From Branchiostoma floridae (taxonomy: Eukaryota > Chordata > Leptocardii > Amphioxiformes > Branchiostomatidae): a stretch of DNA of 64,000 bases. Made by a program: the position numbers and the translations under genes. Shown one piece after another: positions 9,778-54,166 of the stretch; position 1 is the stretch's first letter; every line of letters starts with the position of its first letter. Below the pieces are notes generated by a model. It was not told where the DNA came from, made no database searches, and worked only from the letters and a program-made list of their open reading frames with translations. Location of the stretch: NCBI RefSeq assembly GCF_000003815.2, contig NC_049986.1:143398-207397 (forward strand). Direction: 5' to 3'.

Positions 9778-10956
9778 GTGGACTGCTTCAAGAAATCAAC
9801 CGTTTCTTTCCTAAATGTCAGGATTCGTTTCCATCCCTGCAGTGTCAGAGACCTACTCAACCTGGCAACCCCGACTGTATCTCATCTGGAAAAAGAGAAG
9901 GGAAGTAATGGACGTGGAGAGGATCTTCCGCGTACACACAAGTGTGGCGAGTGCGACAAGGAGTTTCGTCGACTGAGTGACATGAAGAGACATACGTGTA
10001 CTCACACTGACAAGAAACCCTTTAGGTGCGAGGATTGCAACAAACAGTTTAGTGGGTTGAGTCAGCTGAAGATACACATGCGGACACATACCGGTGAGAA
10101 GCCCTATAGGTGTGATGAATGCAGCAAACAATTTAGTAAGCTGTGTCATCTAAAGCAGCACATGAAGAATCATACTGGTGAAAAACCTTACAAGTGTGAG
10201 GAATGCAACAGGCAGTTTAGTCAGCTCGGTTCTCTGAAGAGTCACATACGGACTCACACCGGTGAGAAACCTTACAGATGTAAGGAGTGCGGCAGACAGT
10301 TCAGTCAGCTTTGTGATCTGAAAAGACACATGCGGACTCATACCGGTGAGAAGCCTTACAGGTGTGATGAATGCAGCAAACAGTTTCGTGTGCTGTGTCA
10401 TCTAAAGAAGCATATGCGGACTCATACTGGAGAGAAGCCCTATAGGTGCGAAGAATGCAGCAAACAGTTTAGTCAGCTGTGTCATCTGAAGCAGCATATA
10501 AAGACTCACACAGGAGAGACACAATACAAATGTGAGGAGTGTGGCAAACAGTTTCGTGAGCTAAGTAAGTTGAAGATACATATTCGGACTCACACGGGTG
10601 AGAAACCTTACAAATGTGAGGAGTGCGGCAAACAGTTCAGCCAGCTTGGCGATTTGAAGAGTCATAGGAGGACTCATACTGGAGAGAAGCCCTATAAGTG
10701 CGAAGAATGCAGCAAGCAGTTTAGTACGCTGAGTAATCTGAAGAGACACATGCGGACTCATACCGGTGAGAAGCCATATAGGTGCGATGAATGCAGTAAA
10801 CAGTTCAGTGTGCTGTATAGTCTAAAGCAGCATATGAAGACTCACACTGGTGAGAAACCTTACAAATGTGAGGAGTGCAGCAGACAGTTCAGCAGGTGGG
10901 GGCATCTGAAGAAGCATATGAGGACTCATACCGGCGAGAAACTCTACTGGTGTTAA
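9778..10956 (+). CDS. C2H2 zinc-finger protein 1 (12 fingers)
   Basis: The reading frame encodes 392 residues: a short N-terminal part (about 1-55) and then 12 consecutive C2H2 fingers joined by TGEKPY-type linkers, as in sequence-specific nuclear DNA-binding proteins. Fingers follow CxxC-12-HxxxH with a nearly fixed scaffold (ECSKQF...LKxHMRTHTGEKPY); variation concentrates at helix positions -1, 2, 3 and 6. No KRAB, SCAN, BTB or SET domain is visible. The start is uncertain. The paralogue has a good ATG (MATPAVSHLE) just after a CTGCAG acceptor, but the equivalent codon here is CTG in ...CAACCTGGCAACC. Translation would have to begin at the upstream in-frame ATG (9778) or in an unseen exon. 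The frame ends at TAA inside the 13th finger: a full finger (ECSRSFSQSNRVQSHKRTH) continues in the same frame to about 11043. Either the protein is slightly truncated or the gene is starting to decay. Confidence 0.85.
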   Translation: MDCFKKSTVSFLNVRIRFHPCSVRDLLNLATPTVSHLEKEKGSNGRGEDLPRTHKCGECDKEFRRLSDMKRHTCTHTDKKPFRCEDCNKQFSGLSQLKIHMRTHTGEKPYRCDECSKQFSKLCHLKQHMKNHTGEKPYKCEECNRQFSQLGSLKSHIRTHTGEKPYRCKECGRQFSQLCDLKRHMRTHTGEKPYRCDECSKQFRVLCHLKKHMRTHTGEKPYRCEECSKQFSQLCHLKQHIKTHTGETQYKCEECGKQFRELSKLKIHIRTHTGEKPYKCEECGKQFSQLGDLKSHRRTHTGEKPYKCEECSKQFSTLSNLKRHMRTHTGEKPYRCDECSKQFSVLYSLKQHMKTHTGEKPYKCEECSRQFSRWGHLKKHMRTHTGEKLYWC

Positions 10957-15233: not shown

Positions 15234-15503
15234 GTTCCTGATCATGAATTTGTATAATTTTAATATGTAGGTTTTGATGAAACATGACAATTTGGGACAC
15301 CCTAGCAGCTGTAACACCACCGATGGTACAACGGTAAAGTCCATAGTCGAAATGCACACGTATGTCCAAGATCGATGACCTCAATTTGAGTCAACCGGCT
15401 TGTGTTTTTGCGTGTTTGTTTGACAATGACGCGGCAATGTTGTTGTTCACATTAAGCAATTGTTTTCTGCACGGTATCAAATTGAATTTTGCTTTCTTCA
15501 CAG

Positions 15504-17281
15504 TTAATTCATCAAACAGGATTTTTGTCGAATGCCTAAACGAGGTTCATGCATACCTTCGACATGAAATTACAAAGCATCGCGAGAACCTGGACAACGA
15601 CAATCCACGAGACTTCATCGACCTCCTCCTCATCGAACTACAGACCCAAGAGAAGACCGACTGCTTTACCGAGGAGAACATTTTGTTCATAATTGAAGAC
15701 CTGTTTTTTGGTGGAGTCGAGACCACAGTCACCACCTTGCGATGGGGTCTTCCCTACATGGTTCTGTGTCCAGAGGAGCAGCAAAAGGTACATCTCAGTG
15801 AGCATGTGCTAGAAATGGTCCAAGTTCAAGATCTTTCACCTCGACTAGGAAACACTTGTCTAGACGTTTATGCAAAGTTCTGCTGCCTTACAGCGGGTTA
15901 CAGTCGATTTCAGTGACTTTGTTCATAGTTAAGAACCATTTAGTGTTGCAAAAATGTCCATTTCGTGTATACATGCACAGAAACAAGAATCGTGAGTATT
16001 GTGTTAAAATAAAGGCCCCCGAGACAAAAACAAAACACGTCTGGACAATTTATGCAAATCAAGACAAAGGTCGAGTCTAGAACAATTGAAACGTCAGGGG
16101 CTTACACTATTGACAAATTACCCACTATTCCTTTCGCTGCGCATGCGTGATCCTAATTGTACAGGAGCTGATCGTATACAAGCCAAATGATCTTTAATAT
16201 ATAAAGTTTGACCCATAACACAATTCATAACTCACATATGCGCACTTGGAACCCCAGAAAGCTCATTTAAAGTAAAAACGACTATTTAAACTAATGGACA
16301 CATGATTTATATAAGAAAACTCTGTAACAGGTCCAAGCTGAGCTGGACAGTATCCTGGGAACAGACCATGACGTGCCCACCCTGGCCCACAGGTCCCAGC
16401 TCCCGTATACCGAGGCTACTATCATGGAGATCCAGCGAATCAGGGCCCTCGTTCCCCTTGGTGGTCCTCACGCTCCAAACGAGGACACAACTTTTCTAGG
16501 CTATGACATCCCATCAGGAACGCAGGTGAGAGATTTATAAACAGCATCGTTATCTTCGTTACGTCTTGCTGAACTTTGACATCGACCACAATGCATTACT
16601 CACACATGAGCACTCGGATCTTTGGGGGTCGTGCATGGGACGTACTAAACGCGAGGCAAATATAGAGATTTCTTGTTCACGTTTCAGTTGAGTGATTATA
16701 TGTCAAATTAAACTCTTTATATTTAACTTGAATTGCAGAATGATGTTTCTATATATATATAGCCCCACGCTACATGGCATGTTACTACGGTATTGATACA
16801 GACATTGTACAATCTATTCGTTTTGAAGGTTCTTCCCATCCTGTGGTCAGCTCATATGGACCCGGAGTTCTGGCCGGACCCAGAGAAGTTTGACCCCTGT
16901 AGATTCCTGGACGCTGACGGCAAGGTGGTTACCAGGCCGGAATCCTTCATGCCCTTTTCTACAGGCAAGTTTTTTTCCAAAGACCAACAAAAGCAAAAGT
17001 GTGTTTTAGAACCTTAAAGTATTCCGTCATAAACCAGTATTTGGTGTAATTAAAAATGATTTGCTTGTTCTTTTAATTCTTTCTCGTTATCCTATACTAC
17101 AGGCCGCCGTGTCTGCCTTGGTAAGCAGCTGGCTAAGATGGAGCTCTTTCTGCTCTTTTCTTCCCTCCTGAAACACTTCAACTTCAAGTTGCCAGAGGGC
17201 GCCGCTGCACCTTCGACAGATGGCTGCCTGGGTTTAACTTTGGCCCCACCAACAGTGAATATGTGTATAATTCAGCGCTAG
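15504..17281 (+). pseudogene. Truncated cytochrome P450 (clan 2), exons 4-7 only
   Basis: Four exons, 15504-15787, 16331-16525, 16829-16964 and 17103-17281, match exons 4-7 of the intact gene in length (284, 195, 136, 179 nt), phase and splice sites, and stay open to TAG. They encode the I helix (GGVETT; usually AGxET), the K-helix ExxR (EIQR), a PERF-type FDPCRF and the heme-binding PFSTG/RRVCLG. Intron 6 begins GC (ACAG/GCAAGT), as in the paralogue. Exons 1-3, encoding the membrane anchor and B-F helices, are absent: upstream is a piggyBac-like MITE end at 15233 and then unrelated sequence. By hand count about 31 of 264 residues differ from the intact copy, including Ala-to-Gly in the I helix and Leu-to-Pro in WGLPYM, suggesting relaxed constraint. 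The frame is open upstream to ATGs at 15362 and 15440, so a short transcript is possible but not an active P450. Confidence 0.88.
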
Positions 17282-22440: not shown

Positions 22441-24135
22441 GCGCTCAAAATCCTTTTTTTGGTTACACCCAAAATTGCAAGCACAAGGACATGTATGATA
22501 CAGCCAAATAAATCAAATCAATCAAATAAAAACAAGTGTTTCCTAGTTGAGGTGAAAGGTCATGAACTTGGACGTACACCATAATCCATTACTAGCACAT
22601 ACGCACTGTGATGTACCTTTTGCTGCTCCTCTGGACACAGAACCATGTACAGAAGACCCCATCGCAAGGTAGTGGCCGTGGTCTCGACTCCAGCAGTAAA
22701 CAGGTCTTGGATTATAAACACAATGTTCTCCTCTGTTAAGCAGTCGGTCTTCTCTTGGGTCTGTAGTTCGGTGAGGAGGAGGTCGATGAAGTCTCGTGGA
22801 TTCTCGTTGTCCAGGTTCTCGCGATGCTTTGTAATTTCATGTCGAAGGTATGCCTGGACCTCGTTTAGGCATTCGACAATAATCCTGTTTGATGAATTAA
22901 CTGTAAAGAAAATGCAATATGATATCGTGCAGAAAACAATTGCTTAATGTGAGCAACAACATTGCCGCGTCATTGTCAAACAAACACGCAAAAAGACAAG
23001 CCGGTTGTCTCAAATTGAGGTCATCGATCTTAGACATACGTGTGCTATTGGACTATGGACTTAACCGTTCTACTATCGGTAAGGCGGTGTAAAAGCTGCT
23101 AGGGTGTCATGTTTTATCAAAACCTACATATTAAAATTATAGAAATGTATCAACAGGAACTTAAGATGGTACAAACAAAAGCAAAAACGGTACCCCGTCG
23201 CATCGGAACATCCTTCCTGGACCTAAAAATGTTTTTGTGTGTCAGCCATAATAAAGTAGTTGTTTTTGATGCTAACATTACTAATCGATGAAGGTAGGAA
23301 CCGAACATACCATATTGTTACGGTCAGTGAACACGTTATAAACACTAACTCAAGATAATGATTAAGTGCTTAAACTTAAAGTAATTCATGAACAAACCGT
23401 CTTTACATATCTAATATCATAGCCTGGGTACCATCCGACTACTACGGGGCATGCGAGGGTATCGGTATCAAAGGGGCCTCGGTAGTAATCGGATGGTACC
23501 CAGGCTATTAGTATATCCTACCTCCCGGTACGAATCGCAGAAATGGAAATACGGTCATCAGCTGACTCGATCCAAGTTCGGCGAACAGTTTGTTGATGCT
23601 TTTGGTCAGTTCCACAAACGTGACGTCATCATAGTCGTAGCGTTTCCCGAACACCATGGAGCAGGTGATGTTGGCGACTGACACAGTCAGGTTGTCGGCG
23701 ATGTCACGTGGATTTGCGTCCCCTTGTTCCGACAACTATTAAAAAATACACACCACATGGCTCAGATTGTCCATCTTCTCATGTCATGGTTGTATCTACT
23801 ATACTTATTAAGAACAACAAAGGCCATGTTCATTTGGAAATGACAAAGACTGAGATGTACTCACAACTCAAACAGCTATCAGCTAATCGGAATTACTTGT
23901 TAGCTGTGTTGTGACGTTATCGAAGACTTATTTTGTGCCTTTCAAGGGCTTAAAGTGAGAATGTTCGCAAAAATACCAGACAGAGCTGACGACCCTCTTC
24001 TCTGATGTTTTCTTCCATACTGCCCGGTCCCATTCTCATTCCCAGGTTTCTCAGCGCACTGTAGGCAAACTTGCGTTTTTCTTTGTAGGCTTCGTTGAAT
24101 TTTGAGAACCCGAGGTCTGTGAGATATATGATATC

Positions 24136-24176
<41 letters not shown>

Positions 24177-25484
24177 NNNNNNNNNNNNNNNNNNNNNNNN
24201 NNNNNNNNNNNNNNNNNNNNNNNNNNNNNNNNNNNNNNNNNNNNNNNNNNNNNNNNNNNNNNNNNNNNNNNNNNNNNNNNNNNNNNNNNNNNNNNNNNNN
24301 NNNNNNNNNNNNNNNNNNNNNNNNNNNNNNNNNNNNNNNNNNNNNNNNNNNNNNNNNNNNNNNNNNNNNNNNNNNNNNNNNNNNNNNNNNNNNNNNNNNN
24401 NNNNNNNNNNNNNNNNNNNNNNNNNNNNNNNNNNNNNNNNNNNNNNNNNNNNNNNNNNNNNNNNNNNNNNNNNNNNNNNNNNNNNNNNNNNNNNNNNNNN
24501 NNNNNNNNNNNNNNNNNNNNNNNNNNNNNNNNNNNNNNNNNNNNNNNNNNNNNNNNNNNNNNNNNNNNNNNNNNNNNNNNNNNNNNNNNNNNNNNNNNNN
24601 NNNNNNNNNNNNNNNNNNNNNNNNNNNNNNNNNNNNNNNNNNNNNNNNNNNNNNNNNNNNNNNNNNNNNNNNNNNNNNNNNNNNNNNNNNNNNCCAGCTG
24701 GGGTACATGGTCGGCGTTTTCCAAAGATCCCTGGGGGGAAACCCCGTACATACATAACAATAATCAATGACAATACAAAATTAAATAAATTGTAACTTAG
24801 CAAGAATCGATAAAGAATAACGCAATTTAACTAAGACAAGATAAGGCAAATCAATTTTACAACGTTAATCCTAATATAACTCCAAATCATAAGTGAAATC
24901 AAATAAGTAATGGATAATTTGCATACCAATGTGAACAGAAAAAGACATGACGGATTACATTTCATACCATTATCATCATGTTAAAAATTTACCTTTACAA
25001 TCGTCATGTTAAAAATAATGCAACTGTTACACCAAATGTTACATATAACGATGTAAAATCGTTCACTATCAGGATATCGTCATTTCAAAACCATACATAG
25101 TGGCATGCGAAATTTGAAGAGAAGAACGTACGCACTTTTTCCAAACCCAGAAAACAGATTCAGCACATACACGCTTGGCCTGCTGGAGAAAGCATCCTTG
25201 TAGTCCACAAGCGCCTCTTTGATGGCCCGGCAGCCGTTCAGAACCACCACGTCTTCCATCCCCATTCTAACAGTGTACACGTCGCCATACTGCTTCCTCC
25301 ACTCCGTAAGCTTCAGGTGGGGCGCTCGGCCGAGGGACAACAGGTGGCCGACAACAGGCCAGCTCCCACTCGGTGACGGTGGGAGGTTCTTACGCCGTTT
25401 GAAGAAGACGAGAAGGGTGAGGAAGACGACCAAAAACACCGCGATGGTGCAAATCGAGACTTCTGACAACAACGCAGAAAACAT
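20383..25484 (-). CDS. Cytochrome P450, clan 2 (complete, 7 exons)
   Basis: A microsomal heme-thiolate monooxygenase of the CYP1/CYP2-like clan; substrate unknown. Exons (minus): 25136-25484, 23977-24116, 23522-23735, 22617-22900, 21222-21416, 20776-20911, 20383-20561. They total 1497 nt and join in frame to 498 residues, the usual P450 length. Phases agree at each junction, so the 24177-24693 gap lies wholly in intron 1. Visible: N-terminal anchor (residues 1-28, ending KRRK), proline hinge PPSPSGSWPVVGH, clan signature FGKRYDYDD in exon 3, I helix AGVETT, K-helix EIQR, PERF-type FDPRRF, heme loop PFSTGRRACIG with the Cys ligand, stop TAG. The ATG follows GAACA with A at -3. Introns are GT-AG except intron 6, which starts GC (ACAG/GCAAGT). 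A truncated copy lies convergently at 15.5-17.3 kb and a decayed one at 3.3 kb. Family-level name (for example CYP1-like or CYP2-like) is not assignable by eye. Confidence 0.93.
22130..22510. repeat. Low-complexity insertion in P450 intron 4
   Basis: C-run, purine-rich A/AAG tract (about 22200-22290), a short unique part with GACCGGTCCTAGGACTT, then a CA run (about 22381-22438), and A-rich CAAATAAATCAAATCAATC. Intron 4 is about 650 bp longer here than in the truncated paralogue, so the block was probably inserted after duplication. The A-rich end suggests a SINE-like unit. Confidence 0.6.
23420..23508. mobile_element. 88 bp palindromic MITE in P450 intron 3
   Basis: TAGCCTGGGTACCATCCGA at the left is mirrored by TCGGATGGTACCCAGGCTA at the right; the TA at each end fits a TA target. 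It lies only 13 bp from the exon 3 splice donor (23521 on the minus strand). Confidence 0.9.
24134..24176. repeat. TA microsatellite next to a gap
   Basis: TA run in P450 intron 1, adjoining the 517 bp gap 24177-24693. The long reading frames crossing it consist of gap and Ile-Tyr repeats only. Confidence 0.95.
24177..24693. other. Assembly gap (517 N)
   Basis: Unknown bases within P450 intron 1. Flanking exons join in frame, so no coding exon needs to be placed here. Confidence 0.95.
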
Positions 25485-27775
25485 TGTTCTGTGTTCGAAA
25501 AAAAAGGAGAGGGTTTGTACTTACAAGAAATGCAACATCTACAAGAAATGAACAAATACAGCATATTTCCATCCCTTTGCCCATGTAGAAATGGACGGAT
25601 GTGAATAATACTTTTGACTTATGCCCGTGCATGGGCTAATTCAACATCCCTCCCCTTCCGACTGGTTCACAATTTGGATCCCTTCTCGCATACACAGGGC
25701 ACTATTGTGTATCACTGTTGACGTCACACACCATGTACCAGTCACTAACTTTGTTTACTGATGCGAGAAGTTTGTTGCCACTGCGCCATGGCATTCGTCA
25801 GGTGGGAAGCAGTTAGCTCTAAAAAGTGATAAAAAGGACGATGTTTCGTCTGAAAATATTCAAGAAGGCTCAGAGTGTCAGTTCATTGGGAAGATGTGCC
25901 AGCAACGTCAGAAATACTGTTTCGATGCATCAGTTTTGTATCCTTCTTCATTCGCCTTGCACATCCCTTAATGTAGGGTTTACAAAAAAGCTGGGCTGAC
26001 TAACTGGGCTGTCTATTCGTGTTATCTAACGCGCCTGGCTATCACGTCAGGCTACTCAGATCCGTTCATATCCGCAGAAATGGTCACACCAATGTAGTTG
26101 CGTCCTTTAATCTAACGGAATGCATGAAAATTACATACATTACAATGGGCATAGTATTCTGGGTAATAGAGGAAGCGAATTGAATAAAACTAAACCGCCC
26201 TACACCCCCAAGTTCAGGTAAATGTCACATCCCACACTTCAATGAACAAAAATGCAACGTCTTTTAACAGATACCTTACTAAATCAATGCGTATATCTAT
26301 TATATCGTACACGATGAAAAAAGGCTCCTTATGGGGCTTACCAGGACGAACATATAATAAAACATGTTTGAACAGAATTACGCTGTACAGTACTGCAGCA
26401 CAAGAAGAATTCTAAACTTTACTTTGTGTAACAATGACAAGTGAGCTGCACGGCAATTTATACATGCTATGGTCTGTGGCAGTTACGACCGATGCACACA
26501 TATTCATGGCACGGCTGTTTGTTTATCAGGTCATTATCAGTGCAGGAGAACTCACCTACAGGCATATCTGTTGGATCTTGACATTCAAAACAAAGCAAGG
26601 AGTCAATTATCATGCAAGTTCATTCAGTGCTACGCATACTATCTCATCTATAACAAATAAAGACGATATTACCCCTTGAAATAGCTTCTAATCCATTATC
26701 AATATCATAAATGTAACCAAGTATGATGAAAAAACTGTTAGAATCATTTAGAAGAAATAAAGACGATCTTACACTTTTAAACAACTGCTACTTCATAATC
26801 AATATCATAAAGGTAACTAAGTATGATAGTGTTAAAATTGAACCAGAGGCAGATCTAATGGAAATGTGTTGCTATCGTGTATCAAAACTCGATACCCTAT
26901 GGCTAGCCAGAGGCCCCCTTTTTGCATATATACTAGGATTCCTTAAAGTTCCGTTCGAGACGTGATAAAAAGTTCGAGGTCATGTGCCGTCATGGTGTCC
27001 GGCTTGTGATCAGTAAGGGTCCCGGCGTGTACTATGATATCGTTTCAACCGCGAACTTAAAACACCGCGAAACAATCCTTTCCGCTCCTACCGTGAAATT
27101 TTATCCCCGTGAAAATAAAAGAATTTACAGTAAGACGAGACAAATCAGGGTATTTAATGGATTTGGGAGGTTCGGGACCATGATAAGTCAGGTAGTGATG
27201 TTTCAGTATGGAGGTAAATTAAGGAGCCTTTTTGTGTAGCTGTGAGCCTGTGTGAAAACCACACATAACTGTCATAAAACTACAATAAATTATATGCATT
27301 GATTTGGATTTGTACATGGGGTATATAAGGACATTTGAAAAGGAATTAAGTTGGTTTGGCACATGTTATCGTTTTTTTTTACATGGAGGGGTTTGTTACT
27401 TACTAAACCATTGTGCAAACTTAATCTGTTCAATAATGAGACGGGCTCTGTATGGACAATCAAAATACAGAACACATAGAACTACTTCATATTGATAATC
27501 CATTTAGAAAGACCAAACTTGAGGTAACAAAAGGAAATTCTTATAACTTAAAAGAAAAAAAATTGAGCACACATCCTGATCAATTAGAATATACTGCCAG
27601 TGTGATGGTCTATTTTGTGTTCGCCTTGCACTCGAGCTCGTTAGGGTGTGAGTTAATTCTCAGACCGTGTCATACCAAAGACATTTTAAAAATGGGACCC
27701 GCTGCTTTCTCTGCTTAGCACTCATCATTCAGGAAACAATATGTAAATTTAACCATATCCAGACTGTTTTTTTTT
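25485..27775. other. No gene seen; P450 upstream region
   Basis: Presumed promoter side of the minus-strand P450, with no element I can call confidently. A direct duplication lies at 26651-26727 and 26752-26828 (shared words AATAAAGACGAT and ATCAATATCATAAA). At about 27040-27125 spaced ACCGCGAA / CCCCGTGAAAATAAAAG words suggest a small dispersed repeat. Confidence 0.45.
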
Positions 27776-37737: not shown

Positions 37738-38026
37738 GTATGAATGAATGAATGAATGAATGAATGAATGAATGAATGAATGAATGAATGAATGGATGAA
37801 TGGATGAATGAATGAATGAATGAATGAATGAATGAATGAATGAATGAATGAATGACGTTTATTGCGCAACATTTGTACATGATACAATGTAAGGCAACGG
37901 TAAAAGATCAATTTATACCATGATACAACTTATTACAATAACTACATGATGCGTTATTTTCGGCAAATTTTCAGAAATCCATCCCCAATGCGTCATAGAT
38001 ATGGTGCATACAATTGCCATATGGTG
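37738..38026 (-). mobile_element. LINE 3' end with tetranucleotide tail
   Basis: On the minus strand the sequence ends ...TTGCGCAATAAACGT (to 37855) and continues as an ATTC repeat (37738-37853), the microsatellite-like tail typical of CR1/L2-type non-LTR elements. The (GAAT)n run yields spurious Ile-His-Ser-Phe frames. It lies head to head with the LINE starting about 38027. Confidence 0.7.
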
Positions 38027-40865
38027 CCACTTTGAGGAACTCAATGAATATCTATGCACTCTGAATCATAGTTTTTCTGCCATTGCTATTACCGAGACTT
38101 GGCTTACTGAAATTACTTGTCAAAATTATAATATTCCTGGATATAAAAGCATTCATCACTGTAGACATGACAGGATAGGAGGAGGGGTTTCTCTATACAT
38201 AAGAAATGACTTATCATATATAGAACGTAAAGACCTGGAGTTCGAAACCAATGAGTCAGGCTCACAGTGCATCTTTATTGAAATTTGCTCAAGTGGCGAT
38301 GAGGGGAAAAAAGTCATCATTAGCTGTGTATACCGGCCTCCTAATACAGATATCCTACAATTTAATGATCAATTGACAGAGTGTATGACTAAGATTAACA
38401 AAGAAAAGAATGTCTGTTATATATTAGGGGACTTCAATATTGACTTACTCAAAACCTCACATTCTCCTACTTCAGATCATGTAAATAATCTCTTCTCTTC
38501 CTCATTCTTCCCTCTTGTGCATAAACCTACCAGAATTACCCCTCATTCTGCTACTTTGATTGACAATATTTATACAAACACACTTGACTCAAACGTAAAG
38601 GCTGGAATCATGGTCACAGACATTTCCGATCACTTCCCAATTTTCTTGATATCTGGATCAGAGGAAAATGGAAATGAACCTTTGAAAAATGTCAATTGTT
38701 ATTCCTATCGTCAGATAAACGAGACGAACAAAGAAAAATTCATTGACTCCCTAACAAACACATCTTGGGATCCCGTCTTGGTAGAAACAGACACAGAATT
38801 GGCTTACGATAAATTTCTTAATACTTTCACTTTACTCTTTGACGAATCATTTCCAATGAAAACAGCAAAAATCGGCCAACGTTCCCACAGAAAACCCTGG
38901 TTGACCCGTGGCCTGCTCAAATCAATTAAGAAGAAAAACAAACTCTATATGAAATACGTCAAAAACCGAACCCCCCTGAGCGAAAGTACATACAAAGAAT
39001 ACAAAAATAAACTAACTCATTTATTAAGAATTGCTAAAAAGAATTATTACCACGGAAAATTTACGGAAGCGTCGAAAAATGTTAAGCAAACTTGGAATTT
39101 AATTAACAACTTATTAAATCGCTGTGATACATCTAAAGCAGCCCCACACAAAATACAAACCGGTGCCCGTACTATCACAGATAAAAATAAGATGTGCGAA
39201 GAATTTAATGATTTTTTTGTTAATGTCGGCCCTACCCTAGAGAGCAAAATACCCATCGTAGCGAAAGATCCCCTCGATTTCATCAAAACTCATCTGAATA
39301 GGCAACTAACGTCATTTGAACCCCCGTCCACTGCTGAAATTTTAGATATAGTACGAAACCTGAAAGATTCCGCTGCTGGACACGATGGAATCAGCGCAAA
39401 AATACTCAAAATATCCCTACCTTATATTATTTGTCCTCTTATACATATCCTAACATTATCCATTCAGAGCGGTGTGGTCCCTAAATCAACCAAAATTGCC
39501 AAAGTGATTCCTATATTTAAAAGTAATGATTCTACCTCGGTAAGTAATTACCGCCCTATTTCAGTTCTACCGTGCATCTCCAAAATTCTCGAAAAATTAA
39601 TATACAATCGTCTTTTAAAGCATTTAGATCAAAATGACATTCTATACAAACATCAATATGGTTTCAGAAGGGGATACTCTACTTCCATGGCACTTATTCA
39701 ATTAATCGAGAAAATTACTACAGCTATTGACAACAATGAATTCACCATAGGGATATTTTTAGATCTAAGCAAAGCATTCGACACGGTAAACCATTCTATT
39801 CTTCTCAAAAAGCTAAATAAATATGGCATTAATGACACAGCACTCAAGTGGTTTAAGAGCTATCTATCAGATAGAAAACAATACGTCACCCTCAATGGCT
39901 ATACATCTTCATGCAAACTGATAAATTGTGGAGTTCCCCAGGGATCAATTCTGGGACCCTTATTGTTTTTAATATATGTTAACGATCTTGCTGAAGCATC
40001 CAAAATATTCTGTTTTATCCTATTTGCTGATGATACAAATCTCTTCCTCTCACATGCAGACTATGATTCGTTAATACGTCTAACCAATCAGGAATTAGAA
40101 AAAGTCATCACATGGTTCGAAACCAACAAGCTATCAGTTAATATCAAAAAGACGTACTATCTTATCTTTTGTAGTAAAAACAAGACATATAATAAGAAAA
40201 ATGCCAATATCTTCCTAAAGAACCTTCCTCTATCCCAAGAATGCCAGGCTAAATTTCTAGGAGTACTCATTGACGATCGACTAACATGGAAGCCCCACAT
40301 TGCTATGTTATTAAATAAAATTTCAAAAACTATCGGGATCATAGGGAAAATTAGACATCTTTTATCCCAGAGAACCTTTATAACCATATATAACAGTCTA
40401 ATCTATCCATATCTCATGTATTGTAATATTGTTTGGGGAAACGCCTACAAAACTTCTCTACACCCTTTATTAATTCTACAGAAAAAATTTCTACGCATTG
40501 CGACATGTTCGAGTTTCTATACTCACTCTTCACCACTATTTGAGAAACTTAGAATTTTGAATATCTATGACGTCAACAGATTTCAACTTGCTCTTTTTAC
40601 AGCCCAACACATAAACCATACTCTCCCCGATACCTTTGACAGCTTTCTTAATTTTCGCTCGCAGTTTCACAATTATCAAACTCGCCAAAGCACAAATCTA
40701 CACATCCCCCTATTCAGAACCTCTCTTGCCCAAATGTCTGTCAAATACAAGTGTGTTAAAATATGGAATGATCTCCCCCCCTCCCTTAAGAATCTAACTT
40801 CCTCTCTCCCGACTTTTAAACGTAATCTGAAAATCCATCTGTTAATCCATCCGAGCCCCCTGTAG
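38001..40865 (+). CDS. Non-LTR retrotransposon polyprotein (endonuclease + reverse transcriptase)
   Basis: An uninterrupted 954-residue frame. Residues about 15-220 are an APE-type endonuclease (ETWL with the catalytic Glu, YRPP, GDFNID near 143, SDHFP near 209). Residues about 430-760 are a reverse transcriptase (YRPISVLP near 516, LDLSKAFDTVNH, GVPQGSILGP near 643, catalytic FADD near 674). The tail ends in the usual WNDLPP...FKRNLK region. Element proteins of this kind nick target DNA and copy their RNA into it. The clade looks CR1/jockey-like. The annotated start is not native: MVHTIAIWC precedes the family-like HFEELNEYL, so the element is 5'-truncated at about 38027, losing the first endonuclease strand. 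No stop or frameshift over nearly 3 kb suggests recent insertion. Confidence 0.92.
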   Translation: MVHTIAIWCHFEELNEYLCTLNHSFSAIAITETWLTEITCQNYNIPGYKSIHHCRHDRIGGGVSLYIRNDLSYIERKDLEFETNESGSQCIFIEICSSGDEGKKVIISCVYRPPNTDILQFNDQLTECMTKINKEKNVCYILGDFNIDLLKTSHSPTSDHVNNLFSSSFFPLVHKPTRITPHSATLIDNIYTNTLDSNVKAGIMVTDISDHFPIFLISGSEENGNEPLKNVNCYSYRQINETNKEKFIDSLTNTSWDPVLVETDTELAYDKFLNTFTLLFDESFPMKTAKIGQRSHRKPWLTRGLLKSIKKKNKLYMKYVKNRTPLSESTYKEYKNKLTHLLRIAKKNYYHGKFTEASKNVKQTWNLINNLLNRCDTSKAAPHKIQTGARTITDKNKMCEEFNDFFVNVGPTLESKIPIVAKDPLDFIKTHLNRQLTSFEPPSTAEILDIVRNLKDSAAGHDGISAKILKISLPYIICPLIHILTLSIQSGVVPKSTKIAKVIPIFKSNDSTSVSNYRPISVLPCISKILEKLIYNRLLKHLDQNDILYKHQYGFRRGYSTSMALIQLIEKITTAIDNNEFTIGIFLDLSKAFDTVNHSILLKKLNKYGINDTALKWFKSYLSDRKQYVTLNGYTSSCKLINCGVPQGSILGPLLFLIYVNDLAEASKIFCFILFADDTNLFLSHADYDSLIRLTNQELEKVITWFETNKLSVNIKKTYYLIFCSKNKTYNKKNANIFLKNLPLSQECQAKFLGVLIDDRLTWKPHIAMLLNKISKTIGIIGKIRHLLSQRTFITIYNSLIYPYLMYCNIVWGNAYKTSLHPLLILQKKFLRIATCSSFYTHSSPLFEKLRILNIYDVNRFQLALFTAQHINHTLPDTFDSFLNFRSQFHNYQTRQSTNLHIPLFRTSLAQMSVKYKCVKIWNDLPPSLKNLTSSLPTFKRNLKIHLLIHPSPL

Positions 40866-44508: not shown

Positions 44509-45387
44509 TTGAAATTTATTTCATCTTGAGGTAGGTTGTATTGTTTCAGAACGCATTAAAACAAACTAACTACACTTACACGGCACGAAAAACGGTATTT
44601 AAGCATGCTTAAATGATGCTTAACGTTGACGTATTTTCCTTCTTTACGGATCTATAAACCTCTTATACGGGTACGTAAAGATTGGCGTTACGTAGTCTTT
44701 ACGTGGGTGCTGATAGGTCCGTATTTTCCGTTTTTTTTAAGTCGCCTTTAAGCAGCTTAAAAGTGTTTTAAATTATTATTAAAACACATTTAAATTGCAT
44801 TTAAATGTTACGTTTATAAAACTTTAAGCATCGTTACAGCTTATTTACGTGTGCGTAAAGATGATCATTAGGTGGCTTATAGGTGCGGATAGGTCCGTAT
44901 TTTCCGGCTTTTTAAGTTGCCTTTCAGCAGCTTAAAGATGTTTTAAATGATTATTAAAACTCATTTAAATTGCATTTAAATATTACGTATTTCAAAACTT
45001 TAAGCATCGTTACGGCTTATTTACGTGCGTAAAGATTATCATTAGGTGCTTATAGATCCGTATTTTCCGTTTTTTAAGTTGCCTTTCAGTAGCTGAAATG
45101 TTTCGTAAATGATTATCAAAACGCCCTTAATATATGTTTAAAGTTCACGTTAATTTCAACTGAAGCCTTTATACGTGGCATATACGTGTGCATTAAGATG
45201 TTTATAAGATGCGTATTGTTGCCCTTTTAGCAGCTTAAAGTTCTCATAAACACTTACAAAAACATCATTGATACATGTATAAAGTTTCCTTTTATTTTCT
45301 CTGAAGCCTCATTTTAGTTCAAATTTACTTCATCTTGAGGTAGGTTGTATTGTTTCAGAACGCAAAAAAACAAACTAACTACACTTA
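44509..45387. repeat. Satellite cassette bracketed by 73 bp direct repeats
   Basis: Outer direct repeats (44509-44580 and 45315-45387) share CATCTTGAGGTAGGTTGTAT and TGTTTCAGAACGCA. Between them are about three diverged ~165-176 bp units, each with a GTCCGTATTTTCCG-type word (44716, 44892, 45057), TTTAAGxxGCCTTT, and TTTACGTGCGTAAAG. It lies within 90 bp of the stop of the secreted-peptide gene, so it was probably inserted in that gene's 3' region. Confidence 0.8.
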
Positions 45388-45473: not shown

Positions 45474-46078
45474 TTATCCACTTATGCAACAAGGATAATT
45501 TCTTCTTTTTCTATATTCTTCCTGATCCACGAGTATATTCTCCACTTCCTCGTTCTCTAGTTCCCGTGTATTAAAATATTCACTGGCCTCATCAAGTTCC
45601 TCCAGGAGCGACCTCGCCTCTTCCACAACCTCCCTCAACTCTGAGTCAGCTGGACGGGTAAAGGAAAGACAGATATCAAGAGAAAGCCAGTGACAAATTA
45701 TGATAGCACGTCGACTTGGGATGGCACTGGTTCTATGTGTAGTGCAGACATTTATTCGTTAAGAAATTTCTAATATTGTAGACACTGAAACAGCAATGTT
45801 TGTGTAGCAGAATGCATCTGTTCAAACGATCCCTTTTTTGCCTTGTGCTATCGAATTATCAATATTTTTCTACTTATCCGCGGCAAAATTAAACAAAGTC
45901 TGATTAAAACTAAATGCCCGTCTGGATATGTGTTATAACCAAACGTACCATCTGCATTGACATCCAGACTTCCACCTTTCCTTCTGCGCCTGCGCCGACG
46001 CCTCCATCCCGCGGAGTCGTCTATCAGCGTTGCCATGACAACCATCGTCACCAGCATCATGCAGACAAACAGCTTCAT
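45474..46078 (-). CDS. Secreted Arg-rich peptide precursor (2 exons, 101 aa)
   Basis: I do not recognise a named family. Exon 1 (45949-46078) begins MKLFVCMMLVTMVVMATL, a clear signal peptide, with cleavage likely near DDSAG. Next is W, eight Arg, Lys, then GGSLDVNAD. The eight Arg use AGG, CGT, CGG, CGC and AGA codons, so the run is not a trinucleotide expansion. Exon 1 ends GATG/GTACGT. After a 299 bp intron with a pyrimidine tract and CCAG, exon 2 (45474-45649) joins in the same phase and encodes an acidic, helix-prone stretch (SLLEELDEAS, ELENEEVENI) ending YRKRR-NYPCCISG and TAA. RKRR is a furin-type site; the final Gly could serve as an amide donor. Signal, short cationic Trp-led peptide and acidic propiece resemble tunicate styelin/clavanin-type antimicrobial precursors, but this is an analogy. 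ACC precedes the ATG. Frame, donor and acceptor agree, supporting a real gene. Confidence 0.75.
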
Positions 46079-46227
46079 GGTGTAGCTTCAGCTGATGTAT
46101 AGGGAGGGGAAGAAAATGATCACGGTTATTCGGTGGAAATGTACATGTATAACTCGGTTTTATCGTTGTGGTGAGCTTTAAGTCTACGAGCTTTAAGTCT
46201 TCATATCTGCAACAAAATACAGGGATT

Positions 46228-46690
46228 AATAATAATAAAGTTTATTGCAAATTCATGCCCATTGGGCTAATTGCAAGAAAAGAATGACTAATTACATGAG
46301 ATGAATAAATGTGGTCTGAATACATGTAGATAAACTAAATTCTAGCATACACATATTAAGTGGATGAATATACATACTATACATAATGGGGTACTAAGTC
46401 TACGTAACTATTACAGGGTTTGACTTCTTTCTTGAAGACATTTGAAAATGAAATGCCCCATGTGTTCTATAATAGATTGAACCCTTGATGTTAGTAGGAA
46501 GAGAATCTTTTGTGGCGTTTTTAACAATGAAAATGTTGGTGTGATTTCGGTCACTCTATCAAATAGCCTTTTTCTTTCGGCTTCGAATTGGGGGCATTCA
46601 CAAATAAAATGTGTTTCATTTTCAACTGCATTCATTGTGCACTGCTTACAAATTCTTTCTTGAACAGGAAATCAACCATGAATCAACCAT
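46228..46690 (-). mobile_element. LINE 3' remnant with C-terminal Cys-His motif
   Basis: On the minus strand the frame 46635-46411 continues upstream as ERICKQCTMNAVENETHFIC then ECPQFEAERKRLFDRV: the CxxC...H...C knuckle typical of the C-terminus of LINE reverse transcriptase proteins. It is followed by ~180 bp of 3' UTR ending TTGCAATAAACTTTATTATT. The rest of the element is missing. Confidence 0.8.
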
Positions 46691-48214
46691 TCGACGAGGA
46701 ACTACATGTATAAGATTTAACATATACATAAACCATTCCATCTCTATTCCAGACCCAACGTTTAGGGTACGTACAGAAACAAGGTAAAAGCGATTGAGAA
46801 TACTAAATAAACAAGAAATCTTTTAAAGAAAAGCTGTGCATTGCCGCGTATTTTATGACTGAACTGCTGAGAGCGACACCTAGCTTCTTCAGTAGGAAAT
46901 GCAGCAAAAGGGGGATATTGGAAATTTACCTCATTATCATAATTTATGTCACATGAATTATTGGCACATTAAACAGGTTTTGTAAAACTTTTTGACCCAC
47001 AATGAATATGCATTATTTTTCATTACAAAATAAGTTCCTTCTGATGCAATTTGTGATATATCTTTATATAAACATGGTGAGTTAAAGCGTAGATTTATTA
47101 CGCTGGACCACATACAGTAACATGCGTCTAGAAGAGCGTTTTAATACTCGCCTGGAATGTACCATTGTCTAACTAAGCCATGAAACTCGGCAAGGAAAGA
47201 AGGGCCTTTGGAAGCACGGCGGTCGGTTGCTAGGGTATTCTTTCCCGTTTCTATGCGCGTTCGACGGAGTATCGGGTTACATGAGGTCTACTATTGGCTA
47301 ACCGTAAAATATTTGAAGATAAATAAAGTGTTATGACAGTGAAAATGACTTTTAAAAAAGATCAAATTAGCAATTTTACATACTTTGAATCTTGTCATAT
47401 GAATTTAAATAGCTATTTTGTATAGATTTTGCTTCCAAAGACGGTTATTTCCTGTTTTCAGGAAGGCCTTTAATTTGACCAAACTCTTGATAAGATGGGC
47501 CGCATGTGTCATCGAAAGTTCTCAATTTTTATATTTTTCGTCATCTATAAGTAAAATAAAACTTTCTGTTTTTGGGATTTTTTTATTTTTAATTTTAAGC
47601 AAAGTTACAGTCGAAAATGTGCGTAAAAATGGCATTATTCGCACTTAATTTCCAATAATTCAAAATCGGAGCCATTTTTAAAAAATCCCAAAAACAGAAA
47701 TCTCGGCAAAACCGTTGCGGTCATTTTGAGCCGTCAATGACTTAATTTGGACTCTTCTTGGTCGAGATCTTAAACGATGTTTGCACGCATGTCATGCCGC
47801 ACGGAGAGCGGGAGGGTGTAATTGATACCGGTGTAAACAACACTAATAATGCACAAGGTCACCAACAAAAACGTCAGTAGCTTTGTTACATATTACAGAA
47901 CCCAAAAAAAGTGACAGCGTAGATGTACTTTCCAGAAAATTGTTTATATTGGTGAAAATTTATATTTTTTGCTTGATTCAAGGTAGCTGGGGGAAAAGGG
48001 GCCAGAAAGCACTGTTTTACCCGCAATGACCGCAGATGACCTAAATAGAACACGGGTTCGGTTCGAATTACGTCAGATGGAACTTCATGGAAGAACGTTC
48101 GAATTCGGCTGGACATGGGAGGTTTTGAGCCCGAATTTGACCACCGTGAAGGGGCTTTGGAAGGGCTGGGTTAAAAGGTCCGTCCATGGATCCATGGAAG
48201 AAAGCTTGCATAAG

Positions 48215-48238
48215 GCATTGCCGCTAGCGCGGCAATGC
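48215..48238. repeat. Hairpin GCATTGCCGC / GCGGCAATGC
   Basis: Ten-base perfect stem with TAGC loop inside the fold-back element. Confidence 0.9.
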
Positions 48239-48464
48239 AAAAATCAAAAAACATGTTGGTAAGAGAGTTTGATACTTACAGAAATCCTGGACACGTAGAT
48301 CACGGCACGATGTCACTTTGAGGTCACAGCTGGCGGGAAGGAATGAGGAGGGCTCACGTGGACGGACATATTTACCCCAAGGTGTAAGACAAGTATGCAA
48401 ATGTTTCATTGTTACTTGTTTTCTGAATGGGAAAGTTAATATAAAAGTCCTAAAACGATTTTTT

Positions 48465-48492
48465 ACCTTGCCGGGCCTTAGCCCGGCAAGGT
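48465..48492. repeat. Hairpin ACCTTGCCGGGC / GCCCGGCAAGGT
   Basis: Twelve-base perfect GC-rich stem with a CTTA loop. It resembles a bacterial terminator stem, but the context is eukaryotic mobile DNA. CCCGGCAAGGTAC recurs singly near 49204. Confidence 0.9.
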
Positions 48493-48895
48493 AATGAGGC
48501 CCGATCTTTACATGGTTCAATCAATGGTTCAATGTTAACCCAGCCCTTCCAAAGGCCCTTCAAAAGGCCCTTTTCTCTTTGCCCAATTTTATGGCTTAGT
48601 TGGACAAGGGTACATTGCAGGCCAGTATTAAAACTGTATTTTAGACGTATGTGGTCCAGCGTAAATAAATCTACGCTTTAACCCATGTTTATCATAAAGA
48701 TATATCAAAAATTGCATCAGAAGGAATTTATTTTGTAATAAAGAATAATACATACTCATTGTGGGTCAAAAAGTTTTACAATACCGGTTTATTGTGCCAA
48801 TAATTTATCTGACATAGATTATGTTAATGAGGTAAATTTCCCTACACTTGGGGATTTTTGCTGCATTTCATACTACAGTTGCTAGGTGTCGCTTT

Positions 48896-50394
48896 GTACA
48901 TTGCAACAACATGAAACAAAAAAATAGCCGCAAACTTCGGGACTAGTCGCCAGGTAAGTACATTTTAAAGACATTTGTGACTATGAATGTCCTTGATAGA
49001 GTTTGTATTGTGTGAAAAATAGATTTGAGACTGGATTGGCAGCTGGAGAAGTCACTAAAGCTTTCCCGTACAAGAATTGGGGTGGGAGGGGGGCGATATG
49101 TGGAACTCTGTGGTTGTCTCTGATTATTTTGATGTGATCCTCATGTTAACTGATGAACACTGGTGAAGCGCCGAGGTACCTTTTCCTGACGAAATCCCTA
49201 CTACCCGGCAAGGTACAGCTTTTTTTAAAGCACTTGTTTTTAATGCTGGCTCTGTTAATGTGAAACATCATGCTTTTGATTGTATACTTCCTTCCCAATG
49301 TGACCTCTGGTGCACTGTTATCAATAAGCAGTATGCTCGCTATACGAATTGATCATCGCTTGCGGTTGGTTGTAATAAACAATGCTTACTTTATAGTGTA
49401 GCGTTGGTACATGTTCCATATTCCGTTGGTGAACCAGAAGTAGTGTGGAGATGCGAATGTTTGAGATGGTTAGACAACGTCCATTGAAAATAAAATAGGG
49501 CTTATAGATTAGTCATAGCTGTGTTTTCAGTTGCTTATTGTAACGTTATATTTGACTAAGGACTGTAAATGTACCTGAGTATGTGGTATCAGTTGGAGCA
49601 TGTCAGTTGAGTCCGCATCAAGATGTTCCTAAAGTTACATGTTCCACTACTTAGTACACTGTAGTGTGCCAGAGTTTGTAGAATTTCCATAATCCAGTGT
49701 CGTCAGTAAACTAAAACACGATATTGCTTTTAACCCTTTGTGTCATTGATGCCAAGTCATTCCTTTTCTATAGAATATCTGATTTCTCCTGTACAGATTA
49801 GCACATGTAACTCCCTACCAGGATTCACTTGCCTAGAAAAATAGTACATGTTGGCAAAATAAATAAATAACATGTCAGACCAGTTAACCGGGCGTGCAGT
49901 TCGACCGGCCTTTTCCAAGTTAGGGGTGGGTTGGGTACCGGTGTCACAGCGATACCCCCCCCCCCCCGCCGGAGCGAAATCGCGAAAAAATTATGAAAGG
50001 AAAAGGTCACGATTGTTCCCACCAGCCTCTGTTTGGAGAGTTCAGTTAGCGAAAATATGCTATGTCAGTATGCTGTAGTCGGCCTTTAATCTTTACTGGA
50101 ACTATCAGGTATGTAATCTTTGACCTTTCCCCGCCGAAGGTCTGACCATTGAATCAGCATGCCCGCCATTTTCAACAGCGACAGGAAGATTATTTCTCTT
50201 TATCTAAGACGATTTTGAAGACGATTCAACGCATTATTGATCCAACAACTATAGCCACACATTGGTTATATCTGTATTAAATATTGACGTGTCTCATGTT
50301 GTCTGCTTATCCCTTATGCAAAACAGAACAATTTTAACCTGGTGCTTTCCTTTGTTAACTGACCTACCAAACCGGTTTTAACCACCCACTCAGT
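48896..50394. other. No gene seen
   Basis: Contains a C-run with GCCGG near 49955-49972 and otherwise unremarkable AT-rich sequence. No domain-bearing frame. Confidence 0.4.
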
Positions 50395-51358: not shown

Positions 51359-51583
51359 ACTGAAGTGATCTGCAAGAAACAGGTCTTTTATACTCTAACT
51401 ATGAATAAAGACAATTTCAGATGTCCAATAGGAAAGGTTGTCAGACAATTCAGACTGCAGACAATTTGGATTCCAAAGAAAACAAAGCTAAGCCAAAGTC
51501 AAGCTGAAGACAATTTGGATTTCAAAGGATATCAAGGCTAAGACACAGTTAATGCAAATGAGTCAATTAGCTCCTGCCTCCGA

Positions 51584-52006
51584 CACAAACTGGTACATCC
51601 AAAAGACAAACCACAGAAAGGTACTAAGGCCAATGTAATCTACAGACTCAAATGCGAGGAACCCAACTGTAACAACACATACATTGGTGAGACTAGTCGT
51701 CCACTAAAAGCAAGATACCAAGAACATTGCAAACCGAAGGCCAACGGCAACTCTTCTGCTATTTTCAACCACCTACAACACAACCAAGGACATTCCTTCA
51801 ACCTCCAATCTACCGACATCCTAGACCGCGAAACCCGCTGGTTTGAACGGGGAGTTAGAGAGGCCATATATGAGAGAATATACAATCCCACGCTCAACAG
51901 AAAAGGGGGGCTACGTATGGAACTTTCCGGCACTTGGGACATAGCACCCCCCCCCCCGCCAACAAAACTTTTAGCTCCTGTAACTAAAACAACAGGAGCT
52001 AATTGA
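51584..52006 (+). CDS. Penelope-like GIY-YIG endonuclease fragment (~140 aa)
   Basis: Open from CAC at 51584 (no start codon; 5' truncated) to TGA at 52006. Early residues give the GIY-YIG core: NVIYRLKCEEPNC then TYIGETSRPLKARYQEH. A later segment, DILDRETRWFERGVREAIYE, supplies the conserved Arg/Glu region typical of Penelope C-terminal endonucleases. The enzyme nicks target DNA for element integration. No stop or frameshift occurs inside. The last codons run into the right inverted arm, and a proline run (PPPPP) comes from a C-homopolymer. Without a reverse transcriptase this copy is not autonomous. Confidence 0.85.
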   Translation, partial: HKLVHPKDKPQKGTKANVIYRLKCEEPNCNNTYIGETSRPLKARYQEHCKPKANGNSSAIFNHLQHNQGHSFNLQSTDILDRETRWFERGVREAIYERIYNPTLNRKGGLRMELSGTWDIAPPPPPTKLLAPVTKTTGAN

Positions 52007-52789: not shown

Positions 52790-53050
52790 GGAGGCGAAAA
52801 GGCTCCCCGAAAGATAAAAGCCAACGCCGCTAGAGGTCTGCGAAAGAGACTAATAATTGCAAGGCGGTTTCAACCATGCAGAACACCATAACAGACCCTG
52901 TCGTTTGTAAGAAGGCAGCAATAATCTTCATAAATCAACTTAACGTTGCTTGTGATTGTCAGCTCAGTCGTTTGAGTCAAGAAATCAACCGATTCTTTTT
53001 TGTATGTTGACATTCATTTTAATTCCTGCAGTGTCAGAGACTTACTCAAC

Positions 53051-54166
53051 ATGGCGACCCCGGCTGTATCTCATCTGGAAAAAGAGAAGGGAAGTAATGG
53101 ACGTGGAGAGGATATTACGCGTACACACAAGTGTGGCGAGTACGGCAAGGAGTTTCATCATCTGAATGACTTGAAGAGTCATATGCATGCCCACAATGGC
53201 GAGACACCGTTAATGTGTGACGATTGCGGCAAACAGTTTGGTAACGTGAGTCAGCTGAAGATACACATGCGGACTCATACCGGTGAGAAACCCTATAAGT
53301 GCGAAGAATGCAGCAAACAGTTCAGTCGGCTTGGTAATCTGAAGATACACATACAGACTCATACCGGTGAGAAGCCCTATAGATGTGATGAATGCAGCAA
53401 ACGTTTTAGTCAGCTGGGTTATCTGAAGAAGCATATGAGGATCCATACTGGAGAGAAACCTTACAAATGTGAGGAGTGCAGCAGACAGTTCAGTGAGCAG
53501 GGTTCTCTGAAGAGGCATATGAGGACTCACACAGGTGAGCAGCCGTACAAATGTGAAGAGTGCAGCAAACAATTCAGTGTCCTGCGTAATCTGAAGAGCC
53601 ATATGAGGACTCATACCGGTGAGAAACCTTACAAATGTGAGGACTGCGGCAGACAGTTCAGTCAGCTTGGTGATCTGAAGAGACATATGCGGACTCATAC
53701 CGGTGAAAAGCCATACAAGTGTGATGAATGCAGCAAACAGTTCAGTGTGCTGTGTAATCTAAAAAGTCACATGCGGACTCACACTGGGGAGAAGCCCTAT
53801 AAGTGCGAAGAATGCAGCAAACAATTCATTGACCTGAGTCAACTAAAGAGTCACATGCGAACTCACACTGGTGAAAGGCCCTACAGTTGTGAGGATTGCA
53901 GCAAACAGTTCAGTGTGCTGAATAATCTGAAGACACATATGCGGACTCACACAGGTGACAAGCCATACAAGTGCGAAGAATGCAGCAAACAGTTTAGTCA
54001 GCTGTATAACTTGAAGAGACACATGCGGACCCATATCGGTGAGAAACTTTATAAGTGTGATGATTGCAGCAAACAGTTTAGTCAGCTGTGTAATCTGAAG
54101 AAGCATATAAAGACTCATACTGGTGAGAAACCAGTGAAGAGTGAGGCAGGCAGTTTTGTGTGCTAG
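53051..54166 (+). CDS. C2H2 zinc-finger protein 2 (12 fingers)
   Basis: Starts at ATG 53051 (MATPAVSHLEKEKGSNGRGE), just after a TTAATTCCTGCAG acceptor-like site and an ACTCAAC leader; in-frame ATG 53000 lies upstream of that acceptor and is less likely. The 371-residue product has 12 C2H2 units with TGEKPYKC linkers. The first (HKCGEYGKEF) has lost its second Cys and is likely non-zinc-binding; the other 11 are intact. As in gene 1, helix positions -1, 2, 3 and 6 vary on a near-constant scaffold, pointing to sequence-specific DNA binding in the nucleus. No effector domain is visible. The frame ends abnormally: in the 13th finger a deletion removes the Cys-Cys knuckle (GEKPVKSEAGSFVC then TAG), and finger remnants continue out of frame to about 54480. 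The shared N-terminus and flanks mark it as a paralogue of the 9.8-11.0 kb gene. Confidence 0.87.
   Translation: MATPAVSHLEKEKGSNGRGEDITRTHKCGEYGKEFHHLNDLKSHMHAHNGETPLMCDDCGKQFGNVSQLKIHMRTHTGEKPYKCEECSKQFSRLGNLKIHIQTHTGEKPYRCDECSKRFSQLGYLKKHMRIHTGEKPYKCEECSRQFSEQGSLKRHMRTHTGEQPYKCEECSKQFSVLRNLKSHMRTHTGEKPYKCEDCGRQFSQLGDLKRHMRTHTGEKPYKCDECSKQFSVLCNLKSHMRTHTGEKPYKCEECSKQFIDLSQLKSHMRTHTGERPYSCEDCSKQFSVLNNLKTHMRTHTGDKPYKCEECSKQFSQLYNLKRHMRTHIGEKLYKCDDCSKQFSQLCNLKKHIKTHTGEKPVKSEAGSFVC

Follow-up and report, generated by a model that had tools for sequence, protein, structure and literature searches.

A gene encoding a Trp-Arg8 precursor lies on the minus strand of a 64,000-nucleotide stretch of Branchiostoma floridae DNA (NCBI RefSeq assembly GCF_000003815.2, contig NC_049986.1, positions 143,398 to 207,397; the whole of this stretch is here called the window). 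Comparison with its relatives in the same genome indicates that it belongs to a genuine lancelet family of precursors with an Arg run, apparently secreted, for which a role in defence is plausible. Among close copies, the Trp and the Arg run are the most conserved segment of the gene. Our best reading, to which we give about an even chance, is that the product would be a host-defence precursor built like the mussel myticalins, with the opposite pattern of variability.

Structure of the Arg8 gene

The two coding exons proposed in a preliminary description of the window, 45949-46078 and 45474-45649 (minus strand), were confirmed, and splicing them gives the 101-aa protein reported there, MKLFVCMM...GWRRRRRRRRKGG...RKRRNYPCCISG. 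The junction is in phase, as claimed (phase 1, donor GATG/GTACGT, acceptor ...TACCCGTCCAG/CTGA, the slash marking the exon boundary), and the Arg run does use five different codons (AGG CGT CGG CGC AGG CGC AGA AGG). It is the only run of at least six Arg in the six frames of the window; one other run of at least five is present, with five Arg. The frame and splice sites of the window copy are intact. Its differences from the nearest paralogue, L009 (C8:1751721), number 2 synonymous and 6 nonsynonymous, too few to prove constraint on the window copy itself. A chance open reading frame is ruled out by the paralogues, since many loci of the same genome have homologous exon pairs with the corresponding frames and splice sites. 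The features of the gene are listed from 5′ to 3′.

48395..48402, minus strand: octamer-like motif ATTTGCAT with a putative promoter role, in a block conserved in the 14-paralogue alignment
48374-48368, minus strand: degenerate TATA-like TAAATAT of the same promoter block, read in the window
48280..48345, minus strand: predicted 5′-noncoding exon 1, from conservation, presumably transcribed; 5′ end approximate, placed from the TATA-like position
48280/48279, minus strand: exon 1 donor TTTCT/GTAAGTATC, from conservation among paralogues
46092..48279, minus strand: intron 1, 2188 nt, ending CCTCCCTATACATCAG just before the ATG
45949..46091, minus strand: exon 2, with 13 nt of 5′UTR, the signal peptide (46078-46007), Trp and Arg8 (46006-45980), then the linker
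45980..46006, minus strand: Trp and Arg8 segment, used for conservation counts among paralogues
45650..45948, minus strand: intron 2, phase 1, 299 nt, its phase and junction pattern common to close copies
45474..45649, minus strand: coding part of exon 3, with a conserved acidic helix (residues 44-67), a fast-evolving acidic stretch, RKRR, the NYPCCISG tail and the stop
45291..45296, minus strand: AATAAA, a candidate polyadenylation signal found by eye

Conservation suggests that the gene probably has three exons, the third being 5′-noncoding and lying with its promoter at about 48402-48280. This likely far-upstream exon and promoter, like the gene family, had been missed in the preliminary description. 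An alignment of 14 close copies contains three conserved islands: the signal and Arg segment with its donor, the acceptor with the helix, and an upstream block. In the close copies the last of these spans 560-430 bases before the ATG and holds ATTTGCAT, TATATA, a short exon-like stretch and the GTAAGTATC donor; blastn places it at 48412-48254 in the window. A CAG stands shortly before the ATG in 13/14 close copies (L032 reads CGG) and in 13/13 distant copies. L010 and L011 are without the GTAAGT donor of the first exon, and the TATA-like box is degenerate in both the window copy and L009.

Relative to L009, intron 1 of the window copy carries insertions at about 48238-46812 and about 46662-46223, which have swollen it to about 2.2 kb. 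The promoter block thus lies 2.2 kb from the ATG, beyond the insertions, and this counts against our best explanation. The segment at 46223-46662, absent from L009, looks by eye like a non-LTR retrotransposon 3′ tail that finishes in ATT repeats. The insertions at 46812-48238 and 48465-49225 (both relative to L009) lie on either side of the promoter block and have common inverted arms (148 nt at 91% and 95 nt at 83%), so that the promoter sits within an inverted repeat about 2 kb wide.

Elsewhere in the window, a 971-codon open frame at 37950-40865 corresponds to a non-LTR retrotransposon: it has a reverse transcriptase domain and, below cut-off, a match to an endonuclease. Two arrays of C2H2 zinc fingers whose N-terminal parts are alike (9778-10956 and 52976-54166) lie about 43 kb apart. 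Cytochrome P450 pieces occur on both strands at 15347-15916, 22560-22943 and 25080-25520, perhaps a local P450 cluster, and a weak GIY-YIG match below the Pfam cut-off (51542-52006) is flanked on either side by a short array of tandem repeats of about 49 bases.

A gene family dispersed over the genome

In a protein search, the source genome (431 contigs, 513 Mb) yielded 75 matches at E<=10. Under the stricter limit of E<=1e-3, the signal-peptide exon was found at no fewer than 40 loci including the window's, and at least 2 more loci have the acidic exon only; these counts were made by hand from the match listing and are lower bounds. The loci are dispersed over many contigs. Thirty-nine of the 40 signal-exon loci, window included, were read (C5:103886 was left out), and 28 of these 39 have a GW head. 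It is followed by a run of 6-10 Arg in 27 (eight Arg in 21, seven in 4, six in 1 and ten in 1), the 28th being the broken copy L013. Other basic heads are present at the remaining 11/39 loci, for example HRRRRSSRRRW, FARRRYSRRRY, FLWGRRRRRGK, FIVFARRRR, FWGSRRRRRRK and one KKKK head, so the Arg run is not universal in the family; L048, of group D, carries six Arg in a head of another kind. In divergent members a basic head still precedes the acidic stretch.

The phase-1 intron GATG/GTA(C/T)G ... CAG/CTGA is present in 22/22 spliced close copies, all of which matched a search pattern modelled on the window gene. A phase-1 donor candidate stands at the matching place in each of five distant copies that have a GW or FW head (L037, L038, L041, L042 and L048); L037, L042 and L048 have other GT sites too, and the phase-1 site at the matching place was taken. 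Second exons were found for L037, L042, L048 and L041, and none was found for L038. Eight members (L026, L031, L036, L039, L040, L043, L044 and L047) read straight through without the phase-1 intron. These eight have a CAG acceptor-like site before the ATG, which points to selective loss of the intron, or to its gain in the others.

The same protein is encoded by L044, L045 and L046, and likewise by L022 and L023. Broken copies comprise L013 (stop, lost ATG), L011 (lost ATG), L015 (frameshift) and L019 (without the signal exon). L032-L034 (G000:C162) form an array of three copies with an SSGSSGG insert after the Arg run; in the first copy, in L032, the intron-1 acceptor reads GG.

The suggestion that the C-terminal octapeptide is a second, amidated product fared poorly, because NYPCCISG is confined to some chromosome-8 copies rather than conserved across the family. 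Only the window copy, L009, L010, L011 and L012 have a last exon that finishes in NYPCCISG or NHPCCISG; L010 and L011 have KRS, not KRR, ahead of it, and the broken L013 contains a displaced fragment. Other close copies end RRTLEQGI, RRNIE, RRTYE, RRSLQ or otherwise. Among the distant sequences, 8/9 aligned have KK near the end, followed by tails that are unlike across subfamilies.

Conservation of the Trp-Arg segment

dN/dS was computed over 14 of the 22 spliced close copies, window included, and the same set served for four-fold counts. L011 (lost ATG), L013 (broken), L015 (frameshift) and L029, L030 and L035 (altered C-terminal part) were left out, as were the near-duplicates L023 and L034; L022 was kept despite its altered C-terminus. 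Over these 14 paralogues dN/dS was 0.12 for the signal, 0.47 for the linker, 0.18 for the helix and 1.05 for the acidic stretch. Trp and the Arg run had 0 nonsynonymous differences, a count favoured by the omission of L013 and L015, which drops two Arg replacements and a two-Arg loss.

Changes were also counted on a tree made from the introns of 12 copies (the window copy and L017 are absent from the non-coding alignment, and L011 and L029 were dropped). Trp and Arg (9 codons) had 0 amino-acid changes and 1 base change. The corresponding counts were 4 amino-acid and 15 base changes for the signal (24 codons), 6 and 13 for the helix (24 codons), and 70 and 102 for the acidic stretch (26 codons).

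Predicted secretion and release of the cationic head

The product is almost certainly a secreted precursor with cationic and acidic parts, as had been proposed. Residue 22 is S or T and residue 24 is G, A or S in 20/20 members compared, a −3/−1 signal-peptidase pattern that supports secretion and makes cleavage after residue 24 likely. The positive-inside rule could favour a membrane anchor, which the conservation of the −3/−1 pattern disfavours. The A1 signal consensus is MKLFVCMLLVTMVVxAMLIDDSEG. The proposed layout of signal, short cationic segment and acidic helical stretch is likewise borne out: the head, WRRRRRRRRK (W25-K34), has a net charge of +9, residues 35-93 have −13 and the tail 0. 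As weak evidence, a single-sequence AF2 model of exon 3 consists of one helix over residues 2-49 of 57 (mean pLDDT 80.8, pTM 0.40).

We propose that signal peptidase would cut after residue 24 and leave an N-terminal W-R8. The acidic part (residues 35-93) would neutralise and store the W-R8-K head in the secretory pathway until a furin-type convertase freed it, with the Arg run itself as a cleavage site, and a second basic site, RKRR, would serve to trim the short tail, which has no conserved sequence. The freed head might then target microbial membranes or polyanions through guanidinium-phosphate binding and Trp insertion, both of which are known for synthetic WR8-type peptides. Several considerations weigh against this proposal. 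Among them are the different basic heads at 11/39 loci, the small number of differences between the window copy and L009, which leaves constraint on that copy unproven, and Pfam scores that all fall short of cut-off. Carboxypeptidases would trim a C-terminal Arg run following convertase cleavage, which counts against a released head, and the freezing of the head in close copies counts against the defence reading because an arms-race effector would not predict it. On a host-defence role with a released cationic head, as predicted from these patterns, our judgement is evenly balanced.

Alternative readings of the Arg run

Foremost among the rivals, the Arg run would be no more than an over-built proprotein-convertase site, and the product would be the acidic helical peptide lying between it and the second basic site. 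The acidic stretch is indeed flanked by basic sites in most of the members inspected, and residues 44-67 are also conserved (dN/dS 0.18) and predicted to be helical. A furin site needs only about four residues, however, and in close copies Trp and the entire run are frozen beyond that need; Trp and 7-8 Arg are also kept in four distant members, and the acidic stretch itself, at residues 68-90, has a dN/dS of 1.05. We regard this reading as unlikely.

Alternatively, the protein may remain uncleaved as a secreted polyampholyte, its Arg8 head binding polyanions (mucus, DNA, heparan sulphate or mineral) and its helix self-associating. This would account for head and helix being the parts of the secreted chain that are conserved as protein; the net charge of that chain over residues 25-101 is only −4. 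The many overlapping convertase sites at the junction of head and helix speak against it, as does the free variation of the linker and acidic stretch in length and sequence, and we consider it unlikely.

A third reading takes conservation at the nucleotide level in the signal-Arg segment (through gene conversion, or an RNA or DNA element) as primary and the Arg run as its by-product. Synonymous sites are slow too wherever the protein is conserved: four-fold site differences amounted to 83/1430 comparisons (5.8%) in the signal, Trp and R8 and 24/690 (3.5%) in the helix. Mean intron distances are much larger, at 0.275 and 0.294; both were taken from 14 copies with L011 and L029 and without the window copy and L017, a set only partly the same as the four-fold set. 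On the tree, the 22 four-fold sites show 11 changes where the intron rate would predict 33.9 (Poisson P about 5e-6), an expectation raised by error in the intron alignment; the pairwise counts are non-independent. The slow synonymous sites could reflect gene conversion or nucleotide constraint, between which one genome cannot tell. Between subfamilies A, B, G and H, signal four-fold differences (4-15%) fall below amino-acid differences (25-43%). Subfamily C is mixed (four-fold 13-36% vs amino-acid 29-36%), with four-fold differences exceeding amino-acid differences against A, and for E and F the values, taken over few sites, run from 15% to 82%. The number of AGGCGC hexamers also favours this third reading: it is one more in L017 and one fewer in L015, so slippage does occur.

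Several observations run the other way. The zones of low synonymous change stop with protein conservation and not at exon ends, and the RNA fold of the window exon is ordinary (z −0.44), which led us to reject RNA structure as the cause of codon freezing. Overlapping frames were rejected as well; in L027, exon 2 can also be read through in a further sense frame and in one antisense frame, to which no weight was given. Comparisons with D are the most diverged at signal four-fold sites (44-82%), yet 2/3 members of that group keep GW-R8.

The preliminary description had taken the five different Arg codons as a sign of selection on the protein over repeat slippage. Codon diversity is insufficient for this on its own, because close copies repeat these codons with almost no base change. 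Protein-level selection on the run is instead shown by the distant paralogues L037, L038, L041 and L042, which have GW-R7/8 despite different Arg codons. Among these four and the window copy, the Arg runs differ by 3-12 bases per pair (5-10 for the window against each of the four) and by no amino acid over the common length, which argues for selection on Arg itself. L048, also in group D, counts against such selection, since its head differs and has six Arg. Nucleotide-level conservation as the primary cause is improbable in our view.

Decayed or transposon-carried sequence without function is very improbable, and already unlikely for the family: broken copies exist (L013, L011, L015 and L019) and insertions crowd the window copy, but the selection pattern in both dN/dS by segment and tree counts opposes it, as do the matches listed for the upstream flank of L027, 22/23 of which lie in or beside family loci. 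Transposon cargo was rejected on the same matches, the remaining one being C208:96124, since a unit whose flank matches adjoin or fall in family loci is unlike a generic repeat. In an informal look at how far pairwise matches extend for 7 reference loci, no end common to many copies was seen.

Comparison with known peptide systems

Neither the window protein nor any of 6 relatives reached a Pfam cut-off (best E values 0.026 and 0.014), PDB sequences gave no convincing relative (best E 0.47), and no relative was found in viral_contigs. Family sequence strings were absent from open-licence PubMed Central text, where GWRRRRRRR had only an unrelated match, in mammalian PTPRJ. In the titles and abstract openings read from open-licence PubMed Central, no such lancelet family is mentioned, though its members may be annotated elsewhere as uncharacterised proteins.

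Styelin and clavanin precursors have a signal, cationic peptide and acidic propiece and come from a chordate; their mature peptides reach 32 residues. The preliminary description had likened the Arg8 precursor to them, and the parallel stands for the order of signal, cationic and acidic parts and for the chordate host. The closer parallel found, however, is mussel myticalin C. Clavanins and styelins, from Styela clava, are described in the available excerpts as 23-residue His-rich and 3.7 kDa Phe-rich alpha-helical peptides, respectively (PMC2866484, PMC10608444). Unlike these, the lancelet protein has a bare oligo-Arg head in place of a mature amphipathic alpha-helix some 23-32 residues long.

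Myticalins and modiocalins are antimicrobial peptides of Mytilus and Modiolus. According to the available excerpts of two reports, their genes have three exons, the first 5′UTR only, with intron 1 right before the ATG and a second, phase-1 intron soon after the cationic part, where the anionic part begins (PMC5577615, PMC12294457). In the same excerpts, the myticalin precursor runs in the order signal, cationic, anionic; the genes are multigene with pseudogenes; seven myticalins are proven antimicrobial; myticalin C10 starts GRRRRYRYWRRG; and the mature region is hypervariable, at 17-47 aa. They are restricted to Mytiloida according to the 2017 abstract, and clustered in Mytilus (PMC5577615, PMC12294457). 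As far as these excerpts describe it, myticalin C resembles the lancelet precursor in a signal ending EG, an Arg-rich head that has Arg in succession as well as aromatic residues, and an anionic C-terminal part; myticalin genes likewise resemble it in a 5′UTR-only exon 1 (here predicted from conservation), an intron before the ATG and a phase-1 intron 2, which is nevertheless absent from 8 distant lancelet members. The lancelet head, in contrast, is about 10 aa long and frozen in close copies, while the myticalin mature region is described as hypervariable. The published signal consensus, MKGXXLLLLTIXXALCMIXECEG, shares little with the A1 consensus by eye beyond MK and the final EG, and the lancelet loci are dispersed over many contigs, unlike the reported Mytilus clusters. 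The likeness noted here is one of architecture, drawn from published descriptions. The lancelet protein may work like a myticalin and is not filed as one, because it lacks the myticalin signal consensus and hypervariable mature part.

A peptide from the same animal group, BjAMP1 of Branchiostoma japonicum, is excerpted as a 97-aa precursor with a 24-aa signal, an anionic region and a dibasic site (PMC4683396). Signal, anionic region and basic site are thus in common, but the order there is reversed, an anionic region preceding a cationic Cys-containing C-terminus. The lancelet tails (NYPCCISG, TLEQGI, NIE, TYE and SLQ), unlike that cationic two-Cys peptide, have no net positive charge. The source genome encodes the mBjAMP1 peptide as published, at 21/21 residues (PMC4683396), and its mature-peptide exon lies on a separate contig (G000:C11) and is not among the matches listed for the family queries. 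At L049:1366-1566 the mBjAMP1 open frame is followed by a diverged second one at 1638-1811 ending RRNMCRNNPKARKMPQCRRFRVGRR, perhaps a second BjAMP peptide or exon.

Two further systems bear comparison. The predicted head has the W and R8 composition of synthetic octa-arginine and Trp-Arg cell-penetrating peptides, which are designed rather than genome-encoded secreted products. Conopeptide-type precursors, in which conserved segments undergo low synonymous change, are similar in their conserved signal, and the N-terminal part of the lancelet protein has a weak match to Pfam Conotoxin PF02950 (E 0.67 and 0.16; 11.4 and 13.3 bits, under the gathering score of 25.1 bits); unlike conopeptides, the lancelet proteins have no Cys framework.

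Implications

In its fullest form, which we put forward only tentatively, our reading is of a large dispersed chordate family, many members of which would make a natural secreted W-R8 cell-penetrating or antimicrobial peptide, frozen almost base for base in close paralogues and accompanied by a diversifying, self-neutralising acidic chaperone. Its three-exon, phase-1 plan, like that of the myticalins, would have been reached convergently or inherited from an ancient shared precursor. Should the head be released, a basal chordate would have oligo-arginine among its natural secreted effectors, and the peptide would not be a laboratory design alone. The presumed effector being frozen to its synonymous sites in close copies, with the propiece free to vary, is a puzzle, the reverse of the reported myticalin pattern. 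The gene plan in common with myticalins opens the question of deep homology versus convergence.
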